From: Haladaptatus sp. R4 | Lineage (GTDB): Archaea > Halobacteriota > Halobacteria > Halobacteriales > Haladaptataceae | Assembly: GCF_001625445.1 (NCBI RefSeq) | Contig: NZ_LWHG01000002.1 | Location: 1-64,000, forward strand | Length of the DNA stretch: 64,000 nucleotides | Direction: 5' to 3' | In this document: positions 23,154 through 51,337 of the stretch, piece by piece | Layout of the letters: each line of letters begins with the position of its first letter | How positions within the stretch are numbered: position 1 is the stretch's first letter | Made by a program: the position numbers and the translations under genes | Notes under the pieces: generated by a model | Told to the model about the DNA's origin: nothing | The model's database searches: none | The model's input: the letters and a program-made list of their open reading frames with translations, nothing else

Positions 23154-24329
23154 TCAGAACCCTTCCCGAAGGAACACGTCCTGACGAGGGAACAGAGCGG
23201 AGAGGTCGGCACGGGCGTCGTCTTCGTGAGCGTCCAACTCCCCGAATCGCTCGGCGTCCTCGACCGAGTGATAGCCCGCGACCAACTGCGAGAGGGTGTT
23301 CACGTCGGTCGTCACGTCGGGGTCGGCGTCGGTGCGGTCACAGCGAACGACGCCGGTCGTGTCGAGTTCGAACGTCCCGTCGTTCCAGTCGGCCAGCGGG
23401 TCGGAAACCCGGAGGACGACGCTCGTTTCGGCGTCGTACGAGATGGTTTCGAGGGCGCGCGGAACGTCCACGAGGCGGAACATCGGTCCGGCGCGGATTT
23501 CGCAGTCCACGTCGCGCGGGTCGGCGACGATGTCGAGCAAGTCGGTGGTTTCCGGCGTGTAGTACAACTCCACGGTCTCGATCTGTGAGTCGTGGTACTG
23601 CACGAATCGGAGCAGGTGACGGTGAGCCTCGTGGTCCACGGACGCCATCTCCCACACTTTGAGTCGCTTGCCGTCGTCGTCCTCGTTGATGGTGTACACG
23701 AGATAACCACGTGCCTCGCCGTCCTGCATCCACGCGTACACGTACGGGTCCTTTTTCCACCCCTTGAACACCCGTTCGCGCCACCAGTCTTCGGTTCGGT
23801 CGATGCTGAGGGCGTACTCCTCGCTGTGGGCGTCGAACACCGGGACGAGCAGTTCCCACTCGTCGGCGTCGAGGTGACGGAACTCACCGGCCGGTTCGAT
23901 GTTCAAATCGAGCGCCTCCGGCGTGGTCTCGTAGTGTGCACACTTGTTCACCGTCGCCCAGCCGTATTTTCGATAGAATTCGTACGAGAAGGGCCAGAGA
24001 GCGGAAAAGTACGCTTCGTTTTCCCGGTACTCGGCGAGCGATTCGACAAGCATCTTCCGGACCAACCCACCGTGGCGGCTTTCGGGTGGCGACGCGACGG
24101 CCGAGAGGCCAGCCATTTCGTGCCAGTCGCCACGGATGTTCGTCGTGAACCAGTAATGTTTGCAGACACAGAGCAAATCGTCACCGTCGAACATTCCACG
24201 TCGGTTGCCGAGTTCCGGGCTGTCGTCGTCATCGTCGGACGGAGGGCCATCCTCGGGTCGAAAGGCGTAGCGGAGGAACTGATCGTATTCATCCTCGTAT
24301 TTGGCCGGCAGCGGCCGATAATCGGGCAT
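23154..24329 (-). CDS. Eis-like GNAT N-acetyltransferase with SCP2-type domain
   Basis: A 391-residue protein built like Eis family acetyltransferases: an N-terminal GNAT domain (~1-140) with the acetyl-CoA loop ASPPESRHGGLVRKML (Arg/Gly-rich), a second GNAT fold (~150-285), and a C-terminal SCP2-like domain (~290-385). The final residue is Phe rather than a free Tyr carboxylate cluster, within SALFPRQDVFLREGF. It would acetylate an amine such as an amino acid, polyamine or drug. Start ATG 24329 was chosen; the ORF can extend to 24374, but the extra residues are hydrophobic and AT-rich, unlike the protein. Confidence 0.85.
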   Translation of the reverse strand: MPDYRPLPAKYEDEYDQFLRYAFRPEDGPPSDDDDDSPELGNRRGMFDGDDLLCVCKHYWFTTNIRGDWHEMAGLSAVASPPESRHGGLVRKMLVESLAEYRENEAYFSALWPFSYEFYRKYGWATVNKCAHYETTPEALDLNIEPAGEFRHLDADEWELLVPVFDAHSEEYALSIDRTEDWWRERVFKGWKKDPYVYAWMQDGEARGYLVYTINEDDDGKRLKVWEMASVDHEAHRHLLRFVQYHDSQIETVELYYTPETTDLLDIVADPRDVDCEIRAGPMFRLVDVPRALETISYDAETSVVLRVSDPLADWNDGTFELDTTGVVRCDRTDADPDVTTDVNTLSQLVAGYHSVEDAERFGELDAHEDDARADLSALFPRQDVFLREGF

Positions 24330-24538
24330 GATTGGCGATTGTGAGGAAACGAGAAATAGATTCGTATTGAACAAATAAATCGCATATTGATATATAAAAT
24401 ACAGGGAGATGTTTTCTGATTAGTGGTCGATTTCTGCAGGTGGATTTGGCGAGTGATCTATGTGCCACGTCATTCCAAACTGTTGAGAAAGAGACAGGGA
24501 TAATCCCGCTAGTTTCTATCCAAATAAATCTAATTCCC

Positions 24539-25045
24539 TTAATAGACGGACGACACGACGTGAACGGATTGATTGTCCTGAATATTCACACCAATCATCT
24601 TGATTGTGGAGAGGTCTCGGAAGGTCTGAGAGTCCTTCGCACCCGATGCTAGCTGCGTGGATACTGTGTAAGTTCCATTTGCCTTATCGGAAGTCGGGAA
24701 GAAATCGTCGAAGTCCGTCTCTTTTGACCCCTTTAGATCGAACGATTTATTTTCGATAATCGTACCATTATGTTGAATTGTAATCGTACCGCTCACCGAG
24801 TTATTTCCTTTATTTTTGACGGTGAAATTTATTTGGTGAGGTCCAGGAGTATTAATCGTAGACGTAGCACCTTGATTCGTTTGAGAGTTGGTTGTCGAAG
24901 GCCGGGAGCTGCTCGAAGTAGCGGTATTATCGGGCGATTGGGTTGTCACTCCCTTTGAACCGCCACTATTTGACTGGTTTCCCGTTCCTATGCAACCCGC
25001 AGTTAATAGTAACATGACAACACCGATTGTAGCAAGTCGTTTCAT
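24539..25045 (-). CDS. Small secreted lipoprotein with Ig-like fold
   Basis: A 168-residue protein. The lipobox LLTAGC puts Cys18 after a Sec-type signal (MKRLATIGVVMLLLTAG). A Ser/Thr/Asn-rich linker (~20-70) holds the domain away from the membrane, then a ~95-residue beta domain begins HQINFTVKNKGNNSVSGTITI, typical of CARDB/FxLYD-like modules. Codon use is AT-richer than in genes on either side and the flanks are AT-rich, which suggests transfer. Function unknown. It stands alone, divergent from the Tat-protein/zincin pair. Confidence 0.75.
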   Translation of the reverse strand: MKRLATIGVVMLLLTAGCIGTGNQSNSGGSKGVTTQSPDNTATSSSSRPSTTNSQTNQGATSTINTPGPHQINFTVKNKGNNSVSGTITIQHNGTIIENKSFDLKGSKETDFDDFFPTSDKANGTYTVSTQLASGAKDSQTFRDLSTIKMIGVNIQDNQSVHVVSSVY

Positions 25046-25504
25046 ATCTACAAAAGAGGATTACGACGGAATCATTATATGCTTTCTGTGGGGTAAAATG
25101 GTGATTTGAGATTACACAAGATATTTAATAATAATCTTGAAAACCCGTTCTCAACTCCCAGTACGAATCGGCGGTATCGGACAGAAACACCCGTAGTAAG
25201 ACTCGAGACGGAGGGGTTCGAGAATTCAATGACCATGGGGTTTCATATCAAATTCTCGATCAAAACAAACTGTAGGGGTCGAATCGGTTCATGCTTGCGT
25301 CGTCGTTTTGGTTCTATCTTTTCAAATTCCCAATATTTAATGGCAGATAATATATACTGAATTGCTACGAATCTCTGTCATTGGGATTTAAAAAAACGGA
25401 GCTATTAAAACTATATATCAGTCTTAAAATTATTAAGTCTTTGAAGACATAAGATATATGATGGTAGTTAAGTTTATTATCTTCGATATATATTATATAC
25501 TTGC
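25046..25504. other. AT-rich gap
   Basis: Strongly AT-rich with homopolymer A/T tracts, most so at 25320-25500. No gene-like ORF. It separates the lipoprotein gene from the divergent two-gene unit and must hold both promoters; only the one at 25473 is called. Confidence 0.5.
25473..25480 (+). promoter_or_regulatory. TATA box for a probable leaderless transcript
   Basis: TTTATTAT at 25473-25480 is centred about 28 bases ahead of the ATG at 25505, the distance expected when transcription starts at the start codon. There is no Shine-Dalgarno before this ATG. Surrounding AT-richness weakens the call. Confidence 0.35.
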
Positions 25505-26059
25505 ATGATAGATAAAAATCCAAAAGAACTTCCATCGCGTAGAAGTGTACTCAAACTAATTGGAGCCGCAGGAATCGCACCAGCAGTTGGTGCTGTTTCT
25601 GTATCAGCTAATTCTGGTAGCTCGGTAGCCTACAGTGACCTATCACCCACCGAAAAGAAGGCATTCAAGAAGTCGGTGGATGAGGGAACATATCAATTCG
25701 AAAGAGGAGAATTACCGTCTGTGTTCAAATCGAACGATTCGGTTACCTTCCAAGGAAAGTCCTATTCCCTTAATCTCATGTATTTGAGAGATGAGACACC
25801 TTCCAAAATAGTGCCACGTCCTGTGAGTAAGGATGTGCCTTCGGAACAGGTGACTCACCTCTCGGAACTGTCATCAAAGTCGCGCGAGGCATTTGCCGAC
25901 GCCCTTGCGGGCAAGGGATCCGAAGTTCCAGCCGATTTCGTTCGTGACTCGAAAAAATACATCTCGTATTCTGGAACAACCTTCGAAAAAGGTCTGATCT
26001 ACACGGACACTGGAATGAAACCAACAATCGTCCCGGAAGTCAACGGAGGTAGCAACTAA
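25505..26059 (+). CDS. Tat-exported protein coupled to a zincin
   Basis: A 184-residue protein. A Tat-like signal is at the N-terminus: PSRRSVLKLIGAAGIAPAVG then VSVSAN, with likely cleavage near residue 34. The mature part (YSDLSPTEKKAFKKSVDEG..., SVTFQGKSYSLNLMYLRD) has helical and beta segments and no Cys. No family is recognised. Its stop TAA shares one base with the ATG of the next gene (TAATG), so the products should be made at equal amounts. AT-rich codon use differs from the chromosome average. It may be a chaperone, inhibitor or propeptide-like escort for the following zincin; this is inferred. Confidence 0.75.
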   Translation: MIDKNPKELPSRRSVLKLIGAAGIAPAVGAVSVSANSGSSVAYSDLSPTEKKAFKKSVDEGTYQFERGELPSVFKSNDSVTFQGKSYSLNLMYLRDETPSKIVPRPVSKDVPSEQVTHLSELSSKSREAFADALAGKGSEVPADFVRDSKKYISYSGTTFEKGLIYTDTGMKPTIVPEVNGGSN

Positions 26060-26742
26060 TGCCAGAAACAGACCAAGTAATCGGCCCGGATATTGAGGTG
26101 TCCGTATTCCTCACTACTGAAGCAAAAGATTACCTGGGCACTCATCCCCAGGCGGTGGCAGCGGCATACCTCCGCCAAGCCCTGGATTACACCTCGTATG
26201 ACTACGCGGTTTATGAACCTAGTAATACCTATACCGTTCCGAGTTCTGATTCACAGGACAGTATTGACCTAGGGGACTTCGCCAGTTGGTGTAGCAACCA
26301 GACCTATGGTGTGAAGGACAGCAACCTATTGGTCACATACAGCAGTTCTCACTCGGGTGCTGCATCCGACTCTTACAGCTATGAAGTTGCTTATGATGCC
26401 AGCGGAATCGATCTCAACAAGACGGATACCTCTACGGAATTAACGCTCCAAAATACGGTCGATGGTTCCGGAGCAATCTCCGGTTGTCTTCACGAAGTTG
26501 GGCACAACCTGATAGACAATAGTCTAACAGGTACTGAATCACACAAAACTGGGTCAAACAACATCAACAGTAGTGGTGAGTATCACGTGACCCCAATGCT
26601 GAGTGGTTACGACCGACAGTTCTACGGGTCGTATAATTACTGTGGAACAGATTATATCGAGAACCCAGCAAACAACACCAGTGGGATTTATTACGACTTC
26701 ACGTGGGCGGAATGCATGAAGAACAATATCGTTCCAAAATAA
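26059..26742 (+). CDS. Putative zinc metalloprotease (zincin) without own signal peptide
   Basis: A 227-residue protein. HEVGH at 145-149 gives the zinc ligands His145 and His149 and catalytic Glu146. A third His at 162 (TESH) and a methionine after HVTPM (Met180) with a following SGY are reminiscent of a metzincin Met-turn, though the spacing from the HExxH is longer than in standard metzincins. Several Cys (78, 143 and near the C-terminus) could form disulfides, suggesting an extracellular protein, yet no signal sequence is present. The preceding coupled gene has a Tat signal, so export as a complex is possible. Confidence 0.7.
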   Translation: MPETDQVIGPDIEVSVFLTTEAKDYLGTHPQAVAAAYLRQALDYTSYDYAVYEPSNTYTVPSSDSQDSIDLGDFASWCSNQTYGVKDSNLLVTYSSSHSGAASDSYSYEVAYDASGIDLNKTDTSTELTLQNTVDGSGAISGCLHEVGHNLIDNSLTGTESHKTGSNNINSSGEYHVTPMLSGYDRQFYGSYNYCGTDYIENPANNTSGIYYDFTWAECMKNNIVPK

Positions 26743-26842
26743 CAGTCAATTGTCGGATAGGATTCCGAATTGGTGTACGCCGTATAAATCAACCATTCTA
26801 TTTTTACTACGCAGGTAATTTCCGATGTACAGGTGCGATTTC

Positions 26843-27631
26843 TCAGGACTTGCTGCCCCATCCGAACGAGAGCCATCCGCCGTCGGGATGGAGAATCTCG
26901 CCGGTCATGAAGTGTTCACCCTCCGCGAGGAACGCCGCGCAGTTGGCGACTTCCTCGGGCGTTCCGAACCGGCCGACGGGCGTGCGGTCGATGACGTCGT
27001 CCTCGTCGAATCCGATCTGGTCCTGGGCGTCGCCCACCATTTCGGTCCGGATGTAGCCGGGCGAGATGGCGTTGACGAGAATGTCGTGTTCGGCCCACTC
27101 GACGGCCAGACAACGGGTAAGGTTGTTCACGCCACCCTTGGACGTGTTGTACGGTGTGCGACCAGTCTGTCCCTGCTCGCCCATCATGCTGGAGATGTTG
27201 ATGATGGCCCCGCCCGTTCCCTGTTCGATCATCTGCCGACCGGCCAACTGTGCCCCGCGGAACGGGGCGGTGAGGTTCACGTCGATGACCTTCTGCCAGT
27301 CCTCCATCGCCATCTCCTCGGCCGGGCCACGGATGTTGATACCGGCGTTGTTCACCCACACGTCCAGCGAACCGAACTCCTCGACGGTTTGCTCGACGAG
27401 GGATTCGAGCGAATCGCCGTCCGTCACGTCGGCTTCGAGCGCGAGGATGGATCCGGCCTCCGCATCGGTTTCGTCGGCGATTTCCTCGGCGGCCTCCGCC
27501 GCCCGCTCCTCTGAACGGGAGTTGACGACGACGTTCGCGCCGCGGGACGCGAACTCCCGTGCGATAGCGTTCCCGATACCACTACTCGAACCAGTCACGA
27601 CGGCAGTCTTGCCGTCGAGTGTGTTCACCAT
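26843..27631 (-). CDS. Short-chain dehydrogenase/reductase (FabG/glucose dehydrogenase-like)
   Basis: A 262-residue classical SDR. The cofactor loop TGSSSGIG is at 13-20, NNAGI is the NAG motif, and the catalytic Ser, Tyr and Lys are in ISSMMGEQGQTGRTPYNTSK. The Arg in NVVVNSRSEE after strand two favours NADP(H). It would reduce a ketone or oxidise an alcohol; sequences like this are annotated as 3-oxoacyl-ACP reductase or glucose 1-dehydrogenase, and the substrate is not determined. It is a single gene with clean GC-rich coding, marking the right end of the AT-rich segment. Confidence 0.93.
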   Translation of the reverse strand: MVNTLDGKTAVVTGSSSGIGNAIAREFASRGANVVVNSRSEERAAEAAEEIADETDAEAGSILALEADVTDGDSLESLVEQTVEEFGSLDVWVNNAGINIRGPAEEMAMEDWQKVIDVNLTAPFRGAQLAGRQMIEQGTGGAIINISSMMGEQGQTGRTPYNTSKGGVNNLTRCLAVEWAEHDILVNAISPGYIRTEMVGDAQDQIGFDEDDVIDRTPVGRFGTPEEVANCAAFLAEGEHFMTGEILHPDGGWLSFGWGSKS

Positions 27632-40343: not shown

Positions 40344-41534
40344 ATGGGGTCCTCCAATCGAGGTACGGCCTTCCGTACGCCACCCGAAGCATTGTCCGAC
40401 GAACAAGCCCGACTGGAACCGTTCGACTGGTACGCAGAAATGCGCAGCACCCAGCCAGTGCGGTACGACGAGCAACGACGAAGATGGGACGTGTTCGGTT
40501 ACGACGACGTTAGCGAAGTTCTCGGCGATCACGAGCGATTCACCGCGGATATCGCCAGTGCGGACATTCGGTTCACGGATGGAAGTCCGCTCGGCACGAC
40601 GGCCGAGACACCGTCGATGATCCGGACCGATCCGCCGGAACACGAACGCCTCCGTAATTTCTCCAACCACCGATTTCTCCCCGGGACGTTGGCGGAGAGT
40701 CGGGAACGCTTCGAGCGAATCGCCGACGATATTCTGGACACCGTCGAAACCGGGACGACGGTCGACATCATCGAGGAATTTTCCCATCCGTTCCCGGTGA
40801 CCGTCATCGCCGATCTACTCGGCCTTCCGGCCGTGGACCGCGAACAGTTCCGCGAATGGTCGATAGCGACAACCGAACTGGCGATGACGGACGAGGAGGA
40901 AGCGAAGAAGGCCCAACGCGAGATGAGCGACTATTTCTCGGAACTCATCCCGGACCGCATCGACGGTGACGGAGACGATCTGATTACCCTCGCCGCGTCG
41001 AACGACGAGTTGAATCACGAGGAGGTCGTCAGGTTTTGCATAACCATCCTCGTCGCCGGTAACGTCACGACGGTCAACCTCATCACGAGCACGCTCTGGT
41101 GTCTCGAAGAACACGACCTGTTCGACGCGGTCCGGGCGGGCAAAATCGACCGCTCGAAGCTGATCGAGGAAGTTCTCCGCTACCGTTCACCGGCCCAAGC
41201 AGTCCGACGCGTGACGACGGAACCGGTCGAAATCGGCGGACGCCAAATCGACGAAAACGAGTTGGTCGTCGCACGGATCGGGTCGGCAAACCGTGACCCA
41301 TCCAAGTTCGACGCGCCGAACGAGTTCCGACCCGAGCGGAACCCCAACCCACATCTGACGTTCGGCGGGGGGATTCACTTCTGTCTGGGGGCGCAGTTGG
41401 CCCGATTGGAAGCGGACATCGCTTTGGAACGACTCCTGGACCGGTTCGGAGTGATCGAACCGGACCTCTCTGACCTCTCCCCGCAGTCGCTCGTTTACGG
41501 CGTCGATTCGCTCCCCTGTTACGTCAGCGAATAG
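40344..41534 (+). CDS. Cytochrome P450, first of tandem pair
   Basis: A 396-residue P450. The heme loop FGGGIHFCLGAQLARLE supplies the thiolate Cys347. The I-helix has LVAGNVTT (oxygen-activation region), and the K-helix ExxR is in EEVLRYRSP. No TM anchor, so it is soluble, of the bacterial class I type needing ferredoxin and a reductase; none is encoded beside it. It starts with its ATG directly after a TetR-type palindrome. A second P450 follows 158 bases downstream on the same strand. The substrate is unknown. Confidence 0.95.
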   Translation: MGSSNRGTAFRTPPEALSDEQARLEPFDWYAEMRSTQPVRYDEQRRRWDVFGYDDVSEVLGDHERFTADIASADIRFTDGSPLGTTAETPSMIRTDPPEHERLRNFSNHRFLPGTLAESRERFERIADDILDTVETGTTVDIIEEFSHPFPVTVIADLLGLPAVDREQFREWSIATTELAMTDEEEAKKAQREMSDYFSELIPDRIDGDGDDLITLAASNDELNHEEVVRFCITILVAGNVTTVNLITSTLWCLEEHDLFDAVRAGKIDRSKLIEEVLRYRSPAQAVRRVTTEPVEIGGRQIDENELVVARIGSANRDPSKFDAPNEFRPERNPNPHLTFGGGIHFCLGAQLARLEADIALERLLDRFGVIEPDLSDLSPQSLVYGVDSLPCYVSE

Positions 41535-41692
41535 CGAACCGTATCCGTATCGGGGCGAGCGTCCCATAGCTCTCGTCGTTCGGCCCGTTGAGGATGCGAG
41601 TAATGGGGCCTCCAAGTGAGCAGCCAAATTCATGTCCGATAGGGGGACAGTTTGGAAAAAGCTGATACGGATACGTACATCAATTACTAGGG

Positions 41693-42919
41693 ATGAGTTC
41701 CTCCAACCCGCAGGGTTTGCAGGCGTTCCCCGACGAACTATCCGAGCGGAAAGCGTGGCTCGAACCGTTCGACTGGTATCGGGAGATGCGCGACCAGGCA
41801 CCGGTTCGGTACGACCCGGTTCGACACGTGTGGGACGTGTTCCGGTACGACGACGTGAAGACCATACTCGCCGACGACGAGCGCTTTTCCGTGAGTCCGC
41901 GGAACGCGGACGGCTTTCAGGAACCGGAGGGCGAAGAGGCGGGCGTCATGCTCGACACGATGCTCCTGCAGGACCCGCCGCGACACGACGAACTCCGCGG
42001 CGTCGTGGACGACGAGTTCAGCCCTCGTTCGATTCGGGAGCTAGAACCGCGCATCCGCGAATTGACCACTGAACTGTTGGACGAAATCCTCGACAACGGA
42101 GACGAAATCGACCTCGTGGAGGAGTTCGCCTACCCGCTTCCGGTCATCGTCATCGCCGAACTGCTCGGCGTTCCGGCCGAGGACCGCGACCAGTTCAAAA
42201 CGTGGTCCGACGCCATCGTCTCCGCCGCGAGCGAGGACGAGAACACGGAGGAGTTCTACGAACGCCAAGGCGAGATGCGCCAAGAGATGGCGTTCTACTT
42301 CGTCCAACTCATGGAGGACCGACGGGAGAACCCACAGGACGACCTCATTTCGACGCTCGTCAACGCCGAAATCGACGGCGATCCGCTCTCGCACCGCGAA
42401 ATCCTCGGAACGTGTATCCTGTTGCTCGTCGCCGGGAACATCACGACGACGAACCTCATCACGAACGCGATGCGGTGTTTCGACGAGGACGACACGTTCG
42501 ACGAGTTAGCAGGTGACGACAAGGCGCTCACCACCGCAATCGAGGAGGTGCTTCGCTACCGGTCGCCCGTGCAGGCCATGACCCGCGTGGCGATGGAGGA
42601 CGTGACGATAGGGGGCGAAACCATCGAGGAAGGCGACCGAATCTCCGTCTGGATGGGTTCCGCCAACCGCGACGAACGGAAGTTCGACGACGCCGACGAG
42701 TTCCGCGCCGACCGCGTTCCGAACCAGCACCTCGGCTTCGGCTACAGCACCCACTACTGCCTCGGCGCGCCGCTCGCCCGACTCGAAGCCAAAGTCGCCC
42801 TCTCGGAACTGTTCTCGCGCGTGTCGAACATCACGATTCCCGAAACGACGCTCGAACCGACGCGGAGTTCGTTCATCTACGGCGTCGATTCGCTCCCGAT
42901 TCGATTCGAGCGGGAGTGA
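41693..42919 (+). CDS. Cytochrome P450, second of tandem pair
   Basis: A 408-residue P450 similar in length and order of motifs to the first: LEPFDWYREMRDQAPVRYD at the start (compare LEPFDWYAEM in the first), I-helix LVAGNITTTN, ExxR in EEVLRYRSP, heme loop FGYSTHYCLGAPLARLE with Cys356. The shared N-terminal phrase and GVDSLP at the C-terminus show they are duplicates that diverged. It may be read from its own promoter in the 158-base gap or through from the first P450. Its product could hydroxylate a lipid, terpenoid or foreign compound. Confidence 0.95.
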   Translation: MSSSNPQGLQAFPDELSERKAWLEPFDWYREMRDQAPVRYDPVRHVWDVFRYDDVKTILADDERFSVSPRNADGFQEPEGEEAGVMLDTMLLQDPPRHDELRGVVDDEFSPRSIRELEPRIRELTTELLDEILDNGDEIDLVEEFAYPLPVIVIAELLGVPAEDRDQFKTWSDAIVSAASEDENTEEFYERQGEMRQEMAFYFVQLMEDRRENPQDDLISTLVNAEIDGDPLSHREILGTCILLLVAGNITTTNLITNAMRCFDEDDTFDELAGDDKALTTAIEEVLRYRSPVQAMTRVAMEDVTIGGETIEEGDRISVWMGSANRDERKFDDADEFRADRVPNQHLGFGYSTHYCLGAPLARLEAKVALSELFSRVSNITIPETTLEPTRSSFIYGVDSLPIRFERE

Positions 42920-43758: not shown

Positions 43759-44351
43759 GACGGAGAGTCGATTCCGAAGCGTGACGAGGACTCCTCTTCT
43801 CGGATGTGAAGCGTCGTGCGGACGGGCGGATAGTCGTCGAGCGAGAAGCGGACGACGACGAGGTCGTCCGCGACCGTTTCGAGGTCGTCGACGGTCGGCG
43901 TCTCGTCGCCCGTGATTTTCAATCCGAGCCACTTCGCTCGCTCGATACCGTAGCGGACGAGGGCGCTCCGGACGAATTCGGCGATATCGCGCGCGTCGGT
44001 GATGGCGAGTCCGGTCGCCTTTCGGCGATACCCCCGAAGCCAGATGGTCGCGGGGTGTTCCTCGCGAAAGTTCTTCCACCAGTTGCTCTGCTGACGAAGC
44101 GTGGTCGCGATGAGGGTGTCACCGCGACGGTCGTAAGCGACGGGGGTGGTGTAGCGGGACCCCGAATATCGTCCGACGTAGGAGAGGAGCATGAGCCGGT
44201 CGCTCACCAGCCAGTGAAGCTTCGAACGGAGCAACCGTCGCAGGATTGGGTTGGCGACGTACTTTTCGGCGAGAAAAAACGGGGTTGGCGGGTTCCGAAG
44301 TTCGACCGACGGCTCCGACTCGTCCGGACCAGTCGTGTCGTCAGTCGGCAT
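43755..44351 (-). CDS. Deazaflavin (F420)-dependent nitroreductase/quinone reductase family protein
   Basis: A 198-residue split-beta-barrel protein. LLSYVGRYSGSRYTTPVAYD and TLIATTLRQQSNWWKNFREEHP match the DDN-like family (TIGR00026/DUF385): SGxxxTTPV and WWKNL-type motifs are the cofactor-binding core. Members reduce quinones or nitro compounds with reduced F420. An N-terminal ~45-residue extension includes a basic helix. It lies next to an Old Yellow Enzyme gene in the same orientation (111 bases apart), so a redox-detoxification cluster is likely. Confidence 0.82.
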   Translation of the reverse strand: MPTDDTTGPDESEPSVELRNPPTPFFLAEKYVANPILRRLLRSKLHWLVSDRLMLLSYVGRYSGSRYTTPVAYDRRGDTLIATTLRQQSNWWKNFREEHPATIWLRGYRRKATGLAITDARDIAEFVRSALVRYGIERAKWLGLKITGDETPTVDDLETVADDLVVVRFSLDDYPPVRTTLHIREEESSSRFGIDSPS

Positions 44352-44462
44352 GAACGTACCTCCGTCCCCGCGGGACGTAATTCCTGCGACTGAATGCCAT
44401 ACGAATCGATGGACGAGTGGCGGCTTAAATCGTCCGTCGGACGAACGACGTGGTTCCGGAAT

Positions 44463-45550
44463 TCACACAGCGCGGCGATACTGTCGGGGCCATTCGACGC
44501 GGTCTTCAGCGTCGAGTTCCGTCGCGGCATGGAGCGTGAAGTACGGGTCGCGGAGGTGTTCGCGGCCGATGATCGCGAGGTCGCCCCGACCGTTTCGGAT
44601 GAGCGCGTCGGCCTGTGCGGGTTCGGTGATGCCGCCGACGGCGCGACGGGGACGTCGGTCTCCTCGCGGATTCGCTCGGCGAACGGGACCTGATAGTTCG
44701 GGCCGGGGTTCGGTATCTGCTGGTCGGGGTGCAGTCCACCGGCACTCACGTCGATGAGGTCGGCACCCAGGCCGTGGAGTTCCTCGGAGAGGTGAACCGA
44801 GTCCTCGATGGTCCACGATTCCCGATCCGACAGCCAGTCGGTCGCGGAGATGCGAACGAAGACGGGTTTGTCGTCGGGCCACACCTCGCGGACCGCTTCC
44901 GTGACTTCCCGAACGATTCGGGTTCGGTTCTCCAGACTGCCGCCGTATTCGTCCTCGCGGCGGTTCGTGACGGGCGAGAGGAACTCGTGGAGGAGGTAGC
45001 CGTGCGCGGCGTGAACTTCCGCGATCTCGAATCCAGCGTCGAGCGCGCGCTCGGCCGCCGACGCGAACGAATCGACGACGGTTGCGATGTCGTCGGTCGT
45101 CATCTCGCGCAGTTCCGGCGGCGTGTCGTCGTACGGCCACGGTTCGGCACTCGGCGCGATGGTTTCCCACCCATCGTCGTCGGGTTGGAGGGGTTGGTTG
45201 CCGCCCCACGGACTGGTCTTGCTCGCCTTACGGCCCGCGTGAGCGAGTTGAATCGCCGGAAGCGCACCACGGTCGCGAATGAATTCGGCGGTCGGAGCGA
45301 GCGCGTCGGCGTGCTCGTCGCTCCAGATGCCGAGGTCGTCCGGCGAGATTCGACCGCGGGGTTCGACGGCGGTCGCTTCGGTCATCACGATGCCAGCACC
45401 GCCCGTAGCGCGGCTTCCGAGGTGCACGTGATGCCAGTCGGTAGCCAGCCCGTCACCGTCACAGGAGTACTGACACATCGGCGACACCATCACACGGTTT
45501 CGCGCCGTCGATTCTCGAAACGTGACGCTACTGAACAGGTCGTCGGTCAT
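44463..45550 (-). pseudogene. Old Yellow Enzyme/NADH:flavin oxidoreductase, single frameshift
   Basis: Residues 1-~305 follow the FMN-TIM-barrel family: SPMCQYSCDGDGLATDWHHVH, QLAHAGRK, the catalytic His/His of EVHAAHGYLLHEF and SVENRTR-type GGSLENRTR. After REETDVPVA the frame shifts near 44640; adding one base restores AVGGITEPAQADALI and IIGREHLRDPYF to a stop at 44463, giving a normal 362 residues. If unrepaired the protein would end in 100+ foreign residues and lack the phosphate-binding GR motif. It resembles 2,4-dienoyl-CoA reductase-like or YqjM-type ene reductases. A sequencing indel is likely. Confidence 0.88.
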
Positions 45551-46389: not shown

Positions 46390-46813
46390 GGCGGCCGTTT
46401 CTCGTTCGGTTTTGATTCGGTTTTGGTTCGGTTTTGATTCAGTTTTGGTTCGGTTTTGATTCGGGTGACGAATCAACAATCGAACACCGGAATCATCGTG
46501 TAGATAACAACGGAATTATCATGTTGAACCGTGGGTTGGGTATCGATTTTGACACGCGACCGAGGTTGACAGCTGTTCAGTTTTCGCCACTATCGAGATG
46601 AATCCTATTTCGGACGCATACATCGCCCACTCGATTCGAGAGCGGGTTTCGAACGGGAAGATGGTGTTCTAAAACTAGCTCCGATTCGGCCTAAAACGAG
46701 TCGTTTGTCGTATTTCTGGGGTAGCGTTCCGTTGTCGAATCGATAAAAGCAAACTTCCGGTGTTAATCCGGTTGTGAGTAAATAATTTACCTACTGAGTC
46801 CCAAGGTGTAACC
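46390..46813. other. Gap with tandem repeat
   Basis: No gene. It contains an 11-bp tandem array (46407-46461) and otherwise AT-leaning unique sequence up to the aldehyde dehydrogenase start, with AATAATTTAC near 46783 as a possible TATA region. Confidence 0.5.
46407..46461 (+). repeat. 11-bp tandem repeat, five copies
   Basis: CGGTTTTGATT and CGGTTTTGGTT alternate (five units of 11 bases with one C-to-A type change). Directly after the stop codon of the RecA-fold gene. T-rich, so it may also end transcription. Confidence 0.75.
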
Positions 46814-48243
46814 ATGTCACAGAAACCGATTCATCGACGGGAGCAACTCTACATCGATGGTGAGTGGCTAGACGCCGACGGCACCCTCGACGTTACCGAC
46901 CTCGCGGACGGTGGCGTCTTCGCGGAAGTCGCCGCAGCGGACGCCGAACAGGCCGACAAAGCGCTCGCCGCCACGGAACGGGCAGAGGCCGAAATGCGCG
47001 AAACGACCATTCCACAGCGCGCCGAGTGGATGGAGGAGATCGCGGACGGCCTCCTCGAACGAAAGGAGGAACTGGCCGAAGTGATCGTGCGCGAAGCCGG
47101 AAAGCCGATTTCGAGCGCTCGCGGCGAAGTCGAGAGCGCGGCAGAGCGCTTCCGCCGTGCGGCGGAAGAGGCCCACGACCTGCAGGGTGAGTTCCGCAAA
47201 GGGACGACCGGCGGCCACGAAGGCTGGGAAGCGATCCTCAAGCCGGAGCCGGTCGGAACGATTCTGGCGATTACGCCGTACAACTACCCCCTCGCAACGA
47301 CCGCGCTGGAAGTCGCACCGGCGCTCGCGGCGGGTAACTGCGTCATCCTCAAACCGGCCAGCAAGACGCCGGTCAGTGCGGCGATTCTGGCGACGTGATC
47401 TCCGACCTCGACCTTCCCAAGGGCGCGTTCAACTTCACCCCCGGACGCGGGAGCGAAATCGGCGACCTGCTCGTCGGCGACAACCGTATCAACATGATCA
47501 CGATGACCGGCAGCAGCGCGGCCGGAAAGCACGTCGCGCGCAAGAGCGGGATGGTCAACCTACACATGGAACTCGGCGGCAACGCACCTGCGGTCATCTT
47601 CCCGGACGCGGACCTCTCGGAAGTCGCCGATGCCTGTGCGAAAGGGTCGCTGAAGTACGCCGGACAGCGCTGTTCGGCCGTCAGCCGAGTGCTCGCGCAC
47701 GAGAGCATCCACGACGACGTCGTCGACCGAATCGACGCCGCGATGGACGAGTGGACCGTCGGCGACCTCTTCGACGAGGACACCCAGATGGGACCGCTCA
47801 TCAGCGAGGACCAGGCTGAATGGGTCGAGGAACTCGTCGAGGATGCGCTCGACAAGGGAGCAGACCTCGTTCGCGGTGGCGACCGAGACGGGCAGTTCTT
47901 CGAACCGACGCTGCTGGCGAACGTCCCGCACGACGCCCGAATCATCCACGAGGAACAGTTCGGTCCCGTCGCTGCGGTCACGACGTTCGAGACCGAGGAG
48001 GACGCCATCGACATCTCGAACGGCGGTGACCTCGCGCTGGACGCGGCCGTGTTCACGGACGACTACGACCGTGCGCGCCGGATGGCCGACAAACTCGACG
48101 CCGGAGCGGTCCGGATCAACGGTGCGCCCAGCCACGGACTCGGAGACATCCCGTTCGGCGGGAACAAGGGTTCGGGAATCGGTCGGCAAGGGCTCAACCT
48201 GACGATAAAGGAGATGGTCCGGCACAAGAGCATCATACTGTAA
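46814..48243 (+). pseudogene. Aldehyde dehydrogenase family protein, single frameshift
   Basis: Two abutting frames encode a 476-residue ALDH. The first ends after KTPVSAAILA; one base added near 47391 joins it to DVISDLDLPKGAFNFTPG. The rest shows MELGGNAPAV (catalytic Glu) and GQRCSAVSR (catalytic Cys), plus GNKGSGIG. The Rossmann segment PTYNYPLATT-like TPYNYPLA is intact. ALDHs of this length with this C-terminus are lactaldehyde or succinate-semialdehyde type. The frameshift lies between the cofactor and catalytic domains, so a truncated product would be inactive. A missing G in a GCGGAC context is the simplest cause. Confidence 0.88.
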
Positions 48244-48395
48244 GCGGTACGAGAGCATCATCCTCTAAATTCGACGGAAGCGAATCTACCGCGAAATCTG
48301 ACCTCGTTGATTTTCCAACGGTCGTCTTCCGGACGGTAGTACCGTCTCTCCGTGGCGTAGTTGTGGCTCTTTTGACACAGGAACGCCGTCGAAGA

Positions 48396-48620
48396 ACCCC
48401 GTCGTTCCGCTGTGTCTGACGGACACGAAAATCGGGATAGTCCCTCCGTTCCGCGGAACGGGACGAAGTTCGAAACTGGTTTTTTACGCGTCGTTCCGCT
48501 ATTTTCTGTGATTATAGGGGCAACGCCGCTTCGAATCGAAGAGACGGGCAACCCCGTCGTTCCGCTGTCTTTTGGTGAGCCAATTCGGTGTTTTGACCCC
48601 CACCGCCGTTCCGCTGTTTG
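48396..48620 (+). repeat. ORB-like boxes, first cluster (four copies)
   Basis: Cores CGTTCCGCTGT at 48403, 48558 and 48607, and a variant at 48492 (CGTTCCGCTAT). The copies at 48403 and 48558 are preceded by ACCCC and three bases. A palindromic relative, CCGTTCCGCGGAACGG, is at 48446-48461. All direct copies point the same way. On the other strand the box reads CAGCGGAACG, three bases, then GGGGT. Confidence 0.75.
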
Positions 48621-48731
48621 TTCCCGTGTTCCAGAAATAAGCCATATTAGTAAAACAATGTAAAAGGAGAATTTAGTCGAGTTCGGTACCGAAGAGTCCG
48701 GTGCTAAAACTGATCGGTTCGGAACATCTGT

Positions 48732-48823
48732 TGGCGGAAATGTGGTACTATCGCTGGCGGAAATGTGGTACTATCGCTGGCGGAAATGTGGTACTATCGC
48801 TGGCGGAAATGTGGTATTGTCGT
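48732..48823 (+). repeat. 23-bp tandem repeat, four copies
   Basis: Unit starts TGGCGGAAATGTGGTACTAT. Copies at 48732, 48755 and 48778 are identical; the fourth at 48801 differs at a few bases near its end, and a partial unit (TGGCGA) follows at 48824. Iteron-like, in the middle of the origin region. Confidence 0.85.
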
Positions 48824-48897
48824 TGGCGACGGGTGTAGATTCGTCGCTGGATGGAACGTCTATTTGGGCGTGACCAATGGGTTTCCCGTCTCACCGA

Positions 48898-49164
48898 ACC
48901 CCATCGTTCCGCTGTTCATTCGGCACCGATGCTCCGGTTGACCGTTTCGTCGTGGTCGATTCTCCACCAAACGGGTTCCGTATAGCTACCCGTCGTTCCA
49001 TCGTCTTTTGTCACCCTCGGTTCCGAAATGACGGTTTAGAGGGTCTCGTGTCGGGATTTTGTTCCCCCACCCCGTCGTTCCGCTGTTTTTTGATACCGAA
49101 TTACAGGAAATAGTTCGGATTCGTCGTCCCTATCCGTTCGGTTGGACCCCACCGTTCCGCTGTT
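48898..49164 (+). repeat. ORB-like boxes, second cluster
   Basis: Cores CGTTCCGCTGTT at 48905, 49076 and 49153, each preceded by ACCCC and three bases (48898, 49069 and 49146). A weak copy, CGTTCCATCGT, is at 48993. Same orientation as the first cluster. Confidence 0.75.
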
Positions 49165-49278
49165 CATCATGCGACGAGCACGGAGGGATACCGATCCGCT
49201 AGCCGTTGAAAAGTGATAATTGTGGAAAGGTGAACATGCAGTTGAAAGGGACGCTCCAATACCGGTGGAAGAAGAATG

Positions 49279-49342
49279 ATTTCAGCATCTGTTGGAAAGT
49301 TCCAGCGTCAGTGGGAAACGGTTCCAACGTCAGTAGAAAACG
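49279..49342 (+). repeat. Degenerate 20-22-bp repeats with TTCCA...GGGAA dyads
   Basis: Copies at 49279 (diverged), 49299 and 49321; the last two start GTTCCAGCGTCAGTGGGAAA and GTTCCAACGTCAGTAGAAAA. A weaker unit may precede them. TTCCA and TGGGAA arms recall the dyad in known haloarchaeal ORBs. Confidence 0.65.
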
Positions 49343-49407
49343 ATTGCAGCGTCGGTGCAGGACACCGACTCGGTGGCGACTGGATCAAGTCTGTCTTCGA
49401 GGAGGGC

Positions 49408-49467
49408 GGTTGCGCTCCGCGGGAAGTGGTTGCGCTCCGCGGGAAGTGGTTGCGCTCCGCGGAATCT
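49408..49467 (+). repeat. 20-bp tandem repeat, three copies
   Basis: GGTTGCGCTCCGCGGGAAGT at 49408 and 49428, and a third unit at 49448 that diverges in its last five bases. Each unit contains an internal CTCCGCGG. Confidence 0.85.
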
Positions 49468-49507
49468 GCCATAGCCGGGACATTGAGTGGCATGGAACAT
49501 ACACCGT

Positions 49508-49598
49508 CGTTCCGCTGTCTTTCGCAAGGGGTTACTCGCTCGTCCCGGGTGTTGCCGACTCGAACGGTGGTTCTCCCCCACCCCACCGTTCCGTTGTT
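49508..49598 (+). repeat. ORB-like boxes, third cluster
   Basis: CGTTCCGCTGT at 49508 and CGTTCCGTTGTT at 49587. The latter has the full ACCCC lead at 49580, preceded by more C. Confidence 0.7.
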
Positions 49599-49670
49599 CT
49601 TCATAGTCATGGGGAGCGACGAAGGAAAGGTCCACTTCCGGAGTTTCCTCTGTCTGTGGGCATTTATAAA

Positions 49671-49911
49671 CACCCCCACCCCTCGATTCCGCTGAATCCC
49701 ACGCCGAAGGTGGGCCGACGAAAATACGACTCCGACGAACGACGGGGAACCGAATATCATTCATCGACTATGTCCGGTGAAATAGTCGATTTAGTCTAGT
49801 TTACGGATATTGTTGTGATGATACCGTCTTGAATCTTCCCATACTAGAAGCCCCTTCTTCCCCCCACCCCACCGTTCGTTCCCCACTCAGCGGAATCGAG
49901 GGGTGGGGGTG
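49671..49911. repeat. Perfect 25-bp inverted repeat flanking an AT-richer segment
   Basis: The 25 bases at 49671-49695 (CACCCCCACCCCTCGATTCC plus GCTGA) are the exact reverse complement of 49887-49911. Each arm contains an ORB-like core variant (GATTCCGCTG). The ~190 bases between include an AT-richer part (about 49745-49830), a candidate DNA-unwinding element. Confidence 0.8.
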
Positions 49912-49929
49912 GTATTTAAGCAAACGGAA

Positions 49930-50084
49930 CAGAAGAAACACCGGAATCAGAGGAACGGATGGTTCTCCGTGTCTTTCCCTCGATTCCGTTCCCGACGTAT
50001 CACACGAGAACGGGTGGTCTGGGTAGGCTATGTCCGTTTTTCCCTATTCAGACGAAACATCGGAATCAGAGGAACGGGTGGTTC
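49930..50084 (+). repeat. 36-bp direct repeat upstream of orc1/cdc6
   Basis: Copies at 49930-49965 and 50049-50084 match at 33 of 36 positions; the shared core is CGGAATCAGAGGAACGG. The second copy is 38 bases ahead of the initiator ATG, so it could serve autoregulation as well as initiation. Confidence 0.8.
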
Positions 50085-50121
50085 GGAAGGGTTATACCAC
50101 TCCTCCGATTGCGATGGAATA

Positions 50122-51337
50122 ATGGGTTCATTCGAGTTCGTTCGCGAACATTCTCCGTACAAAAATCGTGAAGCACTGTTGGACGATTACACGCCCGACA
50201 CGCTGGTGGGACGGGATTCCGAGTTGGAGGAATATCACGGTGCGCTCCAACCCGCGATTTACGGCGAGCAACCGGACAACATCTTCCTTTACGGGAAAGC
50301 CGGTGTGGGGAAAACCGCCGCGACGCGATTCTTGCTGGACAAACTGGAGAACAACGCCGACGACTACGACGACCTCGACATCTTCACCGAACTGGTCAAC
50401 TGCGACGGTCTCAACTCCAGTTATCGCGTGGCGAGTCACCTCGTGAACACCCTTCGAGACCCCGCGAACCGAATCAGCGAGACCGGCTATTCGCGCTCGC
50501 AAGTGTACGAACTCATGTGGGACGAACTCGACAGCCACGGCGGAATCATCCTCCTCGTGCTGGACGAAATCGACCACCTGAAGGACGACAGCATCCTCTA
50601 TCAACTCTCCCGTGCACGCGAAAACGGCAACCTCACCGAAGCCCGAATCGGCCTCATCGGTATCAGCAACGACCTCACGTTCCGCGACGGACTCTCGCCG
50701 AAAGTCCGTTCCTCGCTCTGTGAGCGGTCCATCTCTTTTTCGACCTACGACGCGAACGAACTCCGCGCCGTCCTCGACCAGCGTCGGGAAGTCGCGTTCA
50801 AGGACGACGTGCTGACCGATGACGTGATTCCACTCTGTGCGGCGTTCGGCGCACAGGAATCCGGCGACGCGCGAAAGGCACTCGACTTGCTCTTGAAGGC
50901 GGGCGACCTCGCTCGCGAGGAAAACGCCGCTCGCGTGTCGGAAGAACACGTCCGACGCGGTCGCGACCTGCTCGAACGCGAGCAGGTCCGCTCGTGGTAT
51001 CGCCGATTTGAACGACCACGAGCGACTGGTCGTCTACGCGCTCGCGACGCTCGAAGCGGAGGGCGAGACGCCCGCTCGTTCCCGCGAAATTTACTCCCGA
51101 TACAAGGCGCTCTCGGTGACCGCCCAGCGCGAGGCCCTGACCGCTCGCTGGCTACGCGAGCACCTGGACGACCTCGCGATGCTCGGAATCCTCTCCGTGT
51201 CGGAGATCAACGAAGGGTCCGCGGGCGGAAAGTATCGCGAATACGCGCTTCAGCAGGACCTCGCGGTCGTGCTGGATGCGCTGGAAGAAACCCTCGAAGC
51301 GATGGGGGTTCACACGAGCGTCAAGGGCTACGTATAG
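50122..51337 (+). pseudogene. Orc1/Cdc6 replication initiator, single frameshift before the winged-helix domain
   Basis: From ATG 50122 the first ~290 residues are a standard Orc1/Cdc6 AAA+ ATPase: Walker A YGKAGVGKTAA (Gly58-Thr65), Walker B VLDEID (145-151), sensor 1 GISND (180-184) and sensor 2 GDARKALDLL (248-257). Near 50992 a one-base insertion shifts the frame; removing the T restores QVRRGIADLNDHERLVVYAL and a winged-helix domain ending at 51337, total ~404 residues. The gene follows a repeat-rich origin region in the same direction. An intact initiator is probably required if this origin is active, so an error is likely; a dormant origin is the alternative. Confidence 0.9.

Follow-up and report, generated by a model that had tools for sequence, protein, structure and literature searches.

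The analysed window comprises bases 1–64000 of contig C2 (122,344 bp) in the draft genome of Haladaptatus sp. R4 (4.9 Mb, 34 contigs). Among named relatives, the Haladaptatus species DYF46, H. halobius, H. salinisoli, H. litoreus and H. pallidirubidus are closest to it. A gene-free gap of 1,878 bp (48244–50121) separates the end of an aldehyde dehydrogenase (ALDH) reading frame, at position 48243, from the ATG of an orc1/cdc6 initiator gene, at position 50122. Both the extent of the gap and the presence of an orc gene at its end, as given in the initial annotation, were borne out by these borders.

The upstream ALDH gene (Pfam Aldedh) is split over two frames. A reading frame of ALDH length (479–489 aa) is found upstream in every compared relative, its homology to ALDH being confirmed for relative G004 only, and in Halorussus other reading frames usually intervene between the ALDH-like frame and orc. 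Farther upstream of ALDH, an intergenic 11-bp tandem repeat (TTCGGTTTTGA, 5.5 copies) occupies window positions 46404–46464.

Coding ORFs and structured RNAs were ruled out as the content of the gap: a Pfam search of the chance ORFs inside it and an Rfam search of the gap both returned zero matches, and its alignable sequence consists mainly of origin recognition boxes (ORBs). A sigma-70 promoter scan was set aside as irrelevant for archaea. The features of the locus are collected in Table 1.

Table 1. Features of the orc1/cdc6-adjacent gap and of the initiator gene, in window coordinates
Feature	Position	Strand	Remarks
Candidate origin region, intergenic	48244..50121		Without conserved gene; flanked by ALDH and orc genes
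Distal ORB 1	48390..48418	-	PWM 31.4
Distal ORB 2	48545..48573	-	PWM 31.3
Distal ORB 3	48594..48622	-	PWM 20.9
23-bp tandem repeat, x4.2	48732..48828		Not conserved; probably outside the origin proper
Distal ORB 4	48892..48920	-	PWM 30.6
Distal ORB 5, full G-string	49063..49091	-	PWM 41.4
Distal ORB 6	49140..49168	-	PWM 23.9
~22-bp degenerate tandem repeat, x3.5	49283..49357		Not conserved
20-bp tandem repeat, x2.8 (~x3)	49408..49462 (to 49475 in the feature list)		Not conserved
Distal ORB 7	49495..49523	-	PWM 25.1; near-constant distance to core in Haladaptatus
Distal ORB 8	49574..49602	-	PWM 29.5
Left mini-box (CAGAGGAAACTCCGGAAG)	49639..49660	-	~51 bp outside left core ORB; position kept in most Haladaptatus and Halorussus
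TATA-like TTTATAAA by left core ORB	49663..49670		Kept in nearly all 21 genomes
Left core ORB, full G-string	49672..49700	-	PWM 31.0; kept in 21/21 genomes
AT-rich block, candidate duplex-unwinding element	49779..49848		Conserved across three genera
Right core ORB, full G-string, inverted relative to left	49882..49910	+	PWM 26.6; kept in 21/21 genomes
TATA-like TATTTAA, probable orc promoter box	49913..49919	+	Between right ORB and mini-box; TTTAAA/TTTAAG in most of the alignment
Right mini-box pair GGAATCAGAGGAACGGATGG	49933..49970	+	~51 bp outside right core ORB
Second mini-box pair, directly 5' of orc	50052..50089	+	Additional copy in Haladaptatus; repeat D10, spacing 119
orc1/cdc6 initiator gene	50122..51337	+	TIGR02928 348.5 bits; Pfam Cdc6_lid and Cdc6_C

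The ORB family of the gap

Read with its G-string last, the ORB has the sequence AACAGCGGAACGRYGGGGTGGGGG, and this single family is kept in all 21 Haladaptataceae genomes compared. It is also the dominant repeat family of the gap, since the direct-repeat families D1 and D2 returned by the repeat search are the same motif, present as eight copies in register. A position weight matrix (PWM) was built from 74 sites in 20 relatives, with the window excluded from training. At a score of at least 9 bits, 12 sites were detected in the 64-kb window and every one of them falls within the gap, nine on the minus strand (left side) and three on the plus strand (right side); downstream of orc, the PWM found no ORB in the window. 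When the gap was simulated 300 times with a first-order Markov model, the matrix gave no site at all. The occurrence of the box at this locus is nearly exclusive at the genome scale as well: searched for across the 4.9-Mb genome, the exact 17-mer ACAGCGGAACGNNGGGG has five matches, every one inside the gap, against none for its reversed control. The published haloarchaeal ORB TAACAGCGGAAACAGTGGGGTGGGGGGGT is of the same type as the ORB of the gap (PMC3528665).

In four Haladaptatus species, a lone perfect ORB lies ~340–430 kb from the candidate origin, beside a universal-stress-protein-like gene (around base 1500 in L091, L094 and L095, and at G002:C2:1068309). This remote box was set aside: it forms a terminator-like hairpin with a T-run in two species, and the genome under study has no exact copy.

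Alignment of the 21 genomes (Haladaptatus, Halomicrococcus and Halorussus) reveals the geometry of the core, in which two full ORBs face outward around an AT-rich block. The distance between them is ~190–220 bp in nearly all genomes and 269 bp in one. A mini-box lies ~51 bp outside each core ORB in most genomes, and TATA-like elements occur on the outer side of both core ORBs. Within the AT-rich block, the 60-bp stretch 49789–49848 is among the least stable 1% of the window (99th percentile of instability). Adjacency to an orc gene, at least two inverted G-string ORBs and, between them, an AT-rich candidate unwinding element place the locus, by its anatomy, among the orc/cdc6-adjacent haloarchaeal origins. 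The haloarchaeal origin architecture that had initially been proposed can thus be recognized both in the sequence and in the alignment.

Upstream of the core, the eight distal ORBs (48390–49602) are all co-oriented. At the PWM threshold, six to eight such extra ORBs are found in Haladaptatus and four in Halomicrococcus; 10 of the 11 Halorussus genomes have none, and in the other the matrix picks out one weak site. This distribution reflects either a gain of the array in the Haladaptatus/Halomicrococcus branch or its loss in Halorussus. When the distal part is aligned three ways with the two closest relatives, conservation is concentrated in the ORBs, which form islands amid poorly alignable sequence.

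Neither of the two closest relatives in the alignment has the tandem repeats of 20–23 bp; the arrays found in each of them are unrelated, and the repeats were ruled out as further origin boxes. The several distinct repeat families described at the outset are real as repeats, but they consist of one conserved ORB family plus unconserved tandem arrays, rather than several families of origin boxes. The same distinction applies to the search of other genomes for these repeats beside orc genes that had been proposed: the ORBs are shared by the 21 genomes compared, and the tandem arrays are unconserved in relatives.

The initiator and its ancestry

The initiator has both its AAA+ and its winged-helix domain, but the assembly places them in two different frames: a 1-nt insertion near 50988 splits the gene, leaving the AAA+ domain and lid in ORF 50122–51006 and the winged helix (Cdc6_C) in 51008–51337, whereas the Haladaptatus relatives have open frames of 412–432 aa. 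Compared with G004, the window carries one extra base near 50988 in orc (located within 50949–51008) and lacks one base near 47388 in ALDH (within 47363–47421); the two sequences are otherwise gap-free over ~2.7 kb of mostly coding sequence, at 88–89% identity. Because these are two isolated one-base indels in conserved genes, orc and the neighbouring ALDH, the orc frameshift is probably a sequencing or assembly error; a genuine recent inactivation of this orc copy could also account for it. An NADH:flavin oxidoreductase-like ORF (44204–45550) apparently changes frame too, a pattern that suggests many indel errors in this assembly.

By sequence, Orc groups with 2qby and 2v1u, archaeal Orc1/Cdc6 proteins of solved structure, and its gene is one of ~17 orc1/cdc6 genes in the source genome. 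An ortholog (86–100% identical) is carried by 27 of the 28 family genomes, in most cases on a contig of 0.3–4 Mb, with identities of 98–99% in all eight other Haladaptatus, 93% in Halomicrococcus and 86–89% in Halorussus. Only in G024, from the Halorussus genus group, is the ortholog missing at the threshold used. To our knowledge, oriC1 is the ancestral haloarchaeal origin, and its Orc1 clade is conserved in all haloarchaea. The window Orc is not an Orc1 of this clade: it belongs to a different one and is ~38% identical to the oriC1-type Orc found elsewhere in its own genome (C11, 74 kb), which adjoins an ORB-like box, TTCCACCCGAAACAGAGGGGTGGGGGGG.

In Orc trees, the chromosomal clade of the family (support 99/97, 99/96) is nested in a larger clade whose other members lie on contigs or plasmids of 57–504 kb, with moderate support for this larger clade (91/92, 94/89). 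More distant Orc homologs also occur on other chromosomes. As the closest Orc relatives are mostly on small replicons, the sequences point to the ancient capture of a plasmid origin as the likely source of the locus. Sister ORBs accompany the orc relatives on small replicons and differ in their first half (AACGTTGGAA, GCACTGGAA), which is consistent with recognition being Orc-specific. Moreover, contig C5 of the same genome (78 kb, L002, three orc genes) holds a related orc and an inverted pair of distinct ORBs (GCACTGGAAACCCGGGGTGGGGG) spaced 189 bp, which is likely another origin.

It had been suggested that the origin was lineage-specific or acquired with an element. Recent acquisition with a mobile element was ruled out, given that the core and the Orc are common to the whole family on large contigs and that an ALDH-length frame lies upstream in every compared relative; an older plasmid origin is plausible. 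Lineage specificity holds for the distal array, but not for the family-wide core and Orc. On the chromosome of H. pallidirubidus, two identical copies of a megaplasmid-type orc were observed (G006:C1:1826662 and 2378511; L232, L233), perhaps an integrated and duplicated megaplasmid.

Known haloarchaeal origins and the skew test

Haloarchaeal oriC1 loci contain inverted G-string ORBs, an AT-rich centre and an adjacent orc, features in common with the present locus. Among the orc/cdc6-adjacent origins described by Wu et al. in 2012, those with the ORB type of Hlac_3512 and HQ2959A likewise have an initiator beside intergenic inverted G-string ORBs (PMC3528665). Likened by ORB type, the box core found here, AACAGCGGAA..GGGGTGGGGG, is nearly identical to TAACAGCGGAAACAGTGGGGTGGGGGGGT of that study. 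In contrast with those origins, the present one lies on large chromosomal contigs, is family-wide and has a long co-oriented upstream array; no Haladaptataceae are among the 15 genomes studied there (PMC3528665). Among the papers searched, none deals with a Haladaptatus origin.

The second comparison is with Haloarcula hispanica, where oriC2D, a cluster of 11 ORBs in 722 bp, lies beside oriC2 and is proposed to restrain it (PMC3936714). The oriC2–cdc6E locus resembles the present one as a secondary chromosomal origin, as a proposed acquired element and in its adjoining cluster of extra ORBs (PMC3936714), and oriC2 is conserved within its clade (PMC4441112). The eight distal ORBs found here correspond to the many extra ORBs that oriC2D places beside its cognate origin. 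However, oriC2D is located downstream of cdc6E and separate from the core, whereas here the extra boxes are located upstream, contiguous with the core, over 1.2 kb and on one strand. Furthermore, oriC2 lies near an rRNA operon and the present locus does not (zero Rfam matches in the 122-kb contig). The locus thus looks like a further case of an established kind of origin, rather than a new system, with a lineage-specific array added.

The skew switch predicted in the initial annotation was not found at the orthologous site in two relatives, in both of which the oriC1-type locus has a clear GC-skew switch. A missing skew change was one of the outcomes that the initial annotation had named as speaking against an origin. 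For the chromosome of H. salinisoli (G007), 20 kb was sampled per 40 kb and the detrended cumulative GC skew was calculated. This curve peaks at 1.80 Mb, coinciding with the oriC1-type orc (1.813 Mb), and neither a GC- nor an AT-skew switch is detected at the candidate site at 395 kb (step rank 36 of 72). Halorussus G014 has a skew step at the oriC1-type locus (P 0.002 or less), while the candidate site displays a weak trend only, which disappears with wider windows. On the contig under study, GC skew is ~+0.017 on either side of the site, 122 kb being too short to judge. With no clear switch at the candidate site and a switch at the oriC1-type locus, the origin is probably secondary, weak or dormant, and it seems not to have served as the main origin over evolutionary time. 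Weak use and dormancy cannot be told apart by skew, which has little power when a chromosome uses several origins.

Proposed working of the origin and competing explanations

Judged by its anatomy and descent, the region is very probably an origin of replication. The more specific reading, that 48244–50121 constitutes an Orc1/Cdc6-dependent chromosomal origin of Haladaptatus, secondary beside oriC1, is also held to be quite likely on the sequence evidence.

From this anatomy we infer Orc binding, unwinding, firing, autoregulation and titration. The neighbouring Orc would bind both core ORBs, as well as the mini-boxes ~51 bp outside them, melt the AT-rich block and help the loading of the MCM helicase there. 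The orc promoter is probably placed between the right ORB and its mini-box, so autoregulation can reasonably be expected, possibly as repression of orc by its product. Surplus Orc would most likely be bound by the eight upstream ORBs, all co-oriented, which would tune or restrain firing in the way proposed for oriC2D of Haloarcula hispanica. By this analogy, a main role of the array as titrator or brake has a probability just short of even. Chances are evenly balanced that the origin fires during ordinary growth in an intact relative.

The strongest competing explanation, possible although on balance somewhat improbable, is a dormant or relict origin that was captured long ago and retained as a backup or for Orc-linked regulation, and is unused in ordinary growth. 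The missing clear skew switch in the two relatives and the frameshifted orc of the window are compatible with it, and orc-adjacent dormant origins have been documented in Haloferax mediterranei (PMC4595724). However, the dormant origin of H. mediterranei arrived recently and lies in a variable region (PMC4595724), whereas core, boxes and Orc are here conserved family-wide, and the weight of the skew result is reduced if several origins are used.

If the region is a real origin, the array could alternatively be an enhancer, its co-oriented boxes seeding a cooperative Orc assembly that would spread into the core and promote unwinding. The placement of all eight distal boxes on one strand, contiguous with the core, would fit such spreading; in most Haladaptatus, the two nearest distal boxes keep spacings of ~79 and ~98 bp from the left core ORB, and in H. 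hispanica a G-rich inverted repeat acts as an enhancer of oriC1 (PMC3936714). Nevertheless, the spacing of the outer boxes varies between species, which a rigid assembly would tolerate poorly, the core exists without any array in nearly all Halorussus, and the sole ORB-rich cluster that has been studied is inhibitory (PMC3936714); an enhancer is considered unlikely. Finally, that the boxes are operators only, through which Orc regulates transcription of its own gene in a region that is no origin, is very improbable: TATA-like elements do lie between the boxes and the mini-boxes overlap the expected orc promoter, but autoregulation needs no inverted full ORBs around a conserved AT-rich centre, and related orc genes on small replicons have a comparable inverted pair next to them.

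Returning to a secondary origin with a restraining array, a more speculative and rather doubtful extension is that a plasmid-type origin, captured by the ancestor of the family, was domesticated in Haladaptatus/Halomicrococcus by means of the one-directional in-cis ORB array, which would set when or whether firing occurs. With the same degree of doubt, the array would then represent initiator titration in cis in an archaeon, present in some and missing in other genera that share core and initiator. If the reading of the region as an origin is right, three genera with the same initiator and core, differing in the ORB array, would provide a natural experiment on the restraint of secondary archaeal origins, which has been studied in one species only, as far as was found. 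The clean box model also offers a means of locating this origin across the Haladaptataceae.

Elsewhere in the window, the stretch 24001–27000 is low in GC (41–50% versus ~60%) and is possibly foreign DNA. Two similar neighbouring ORFs (396 and 408 aa), cytochrome P450-like in appearance, lie at 40344–42919.
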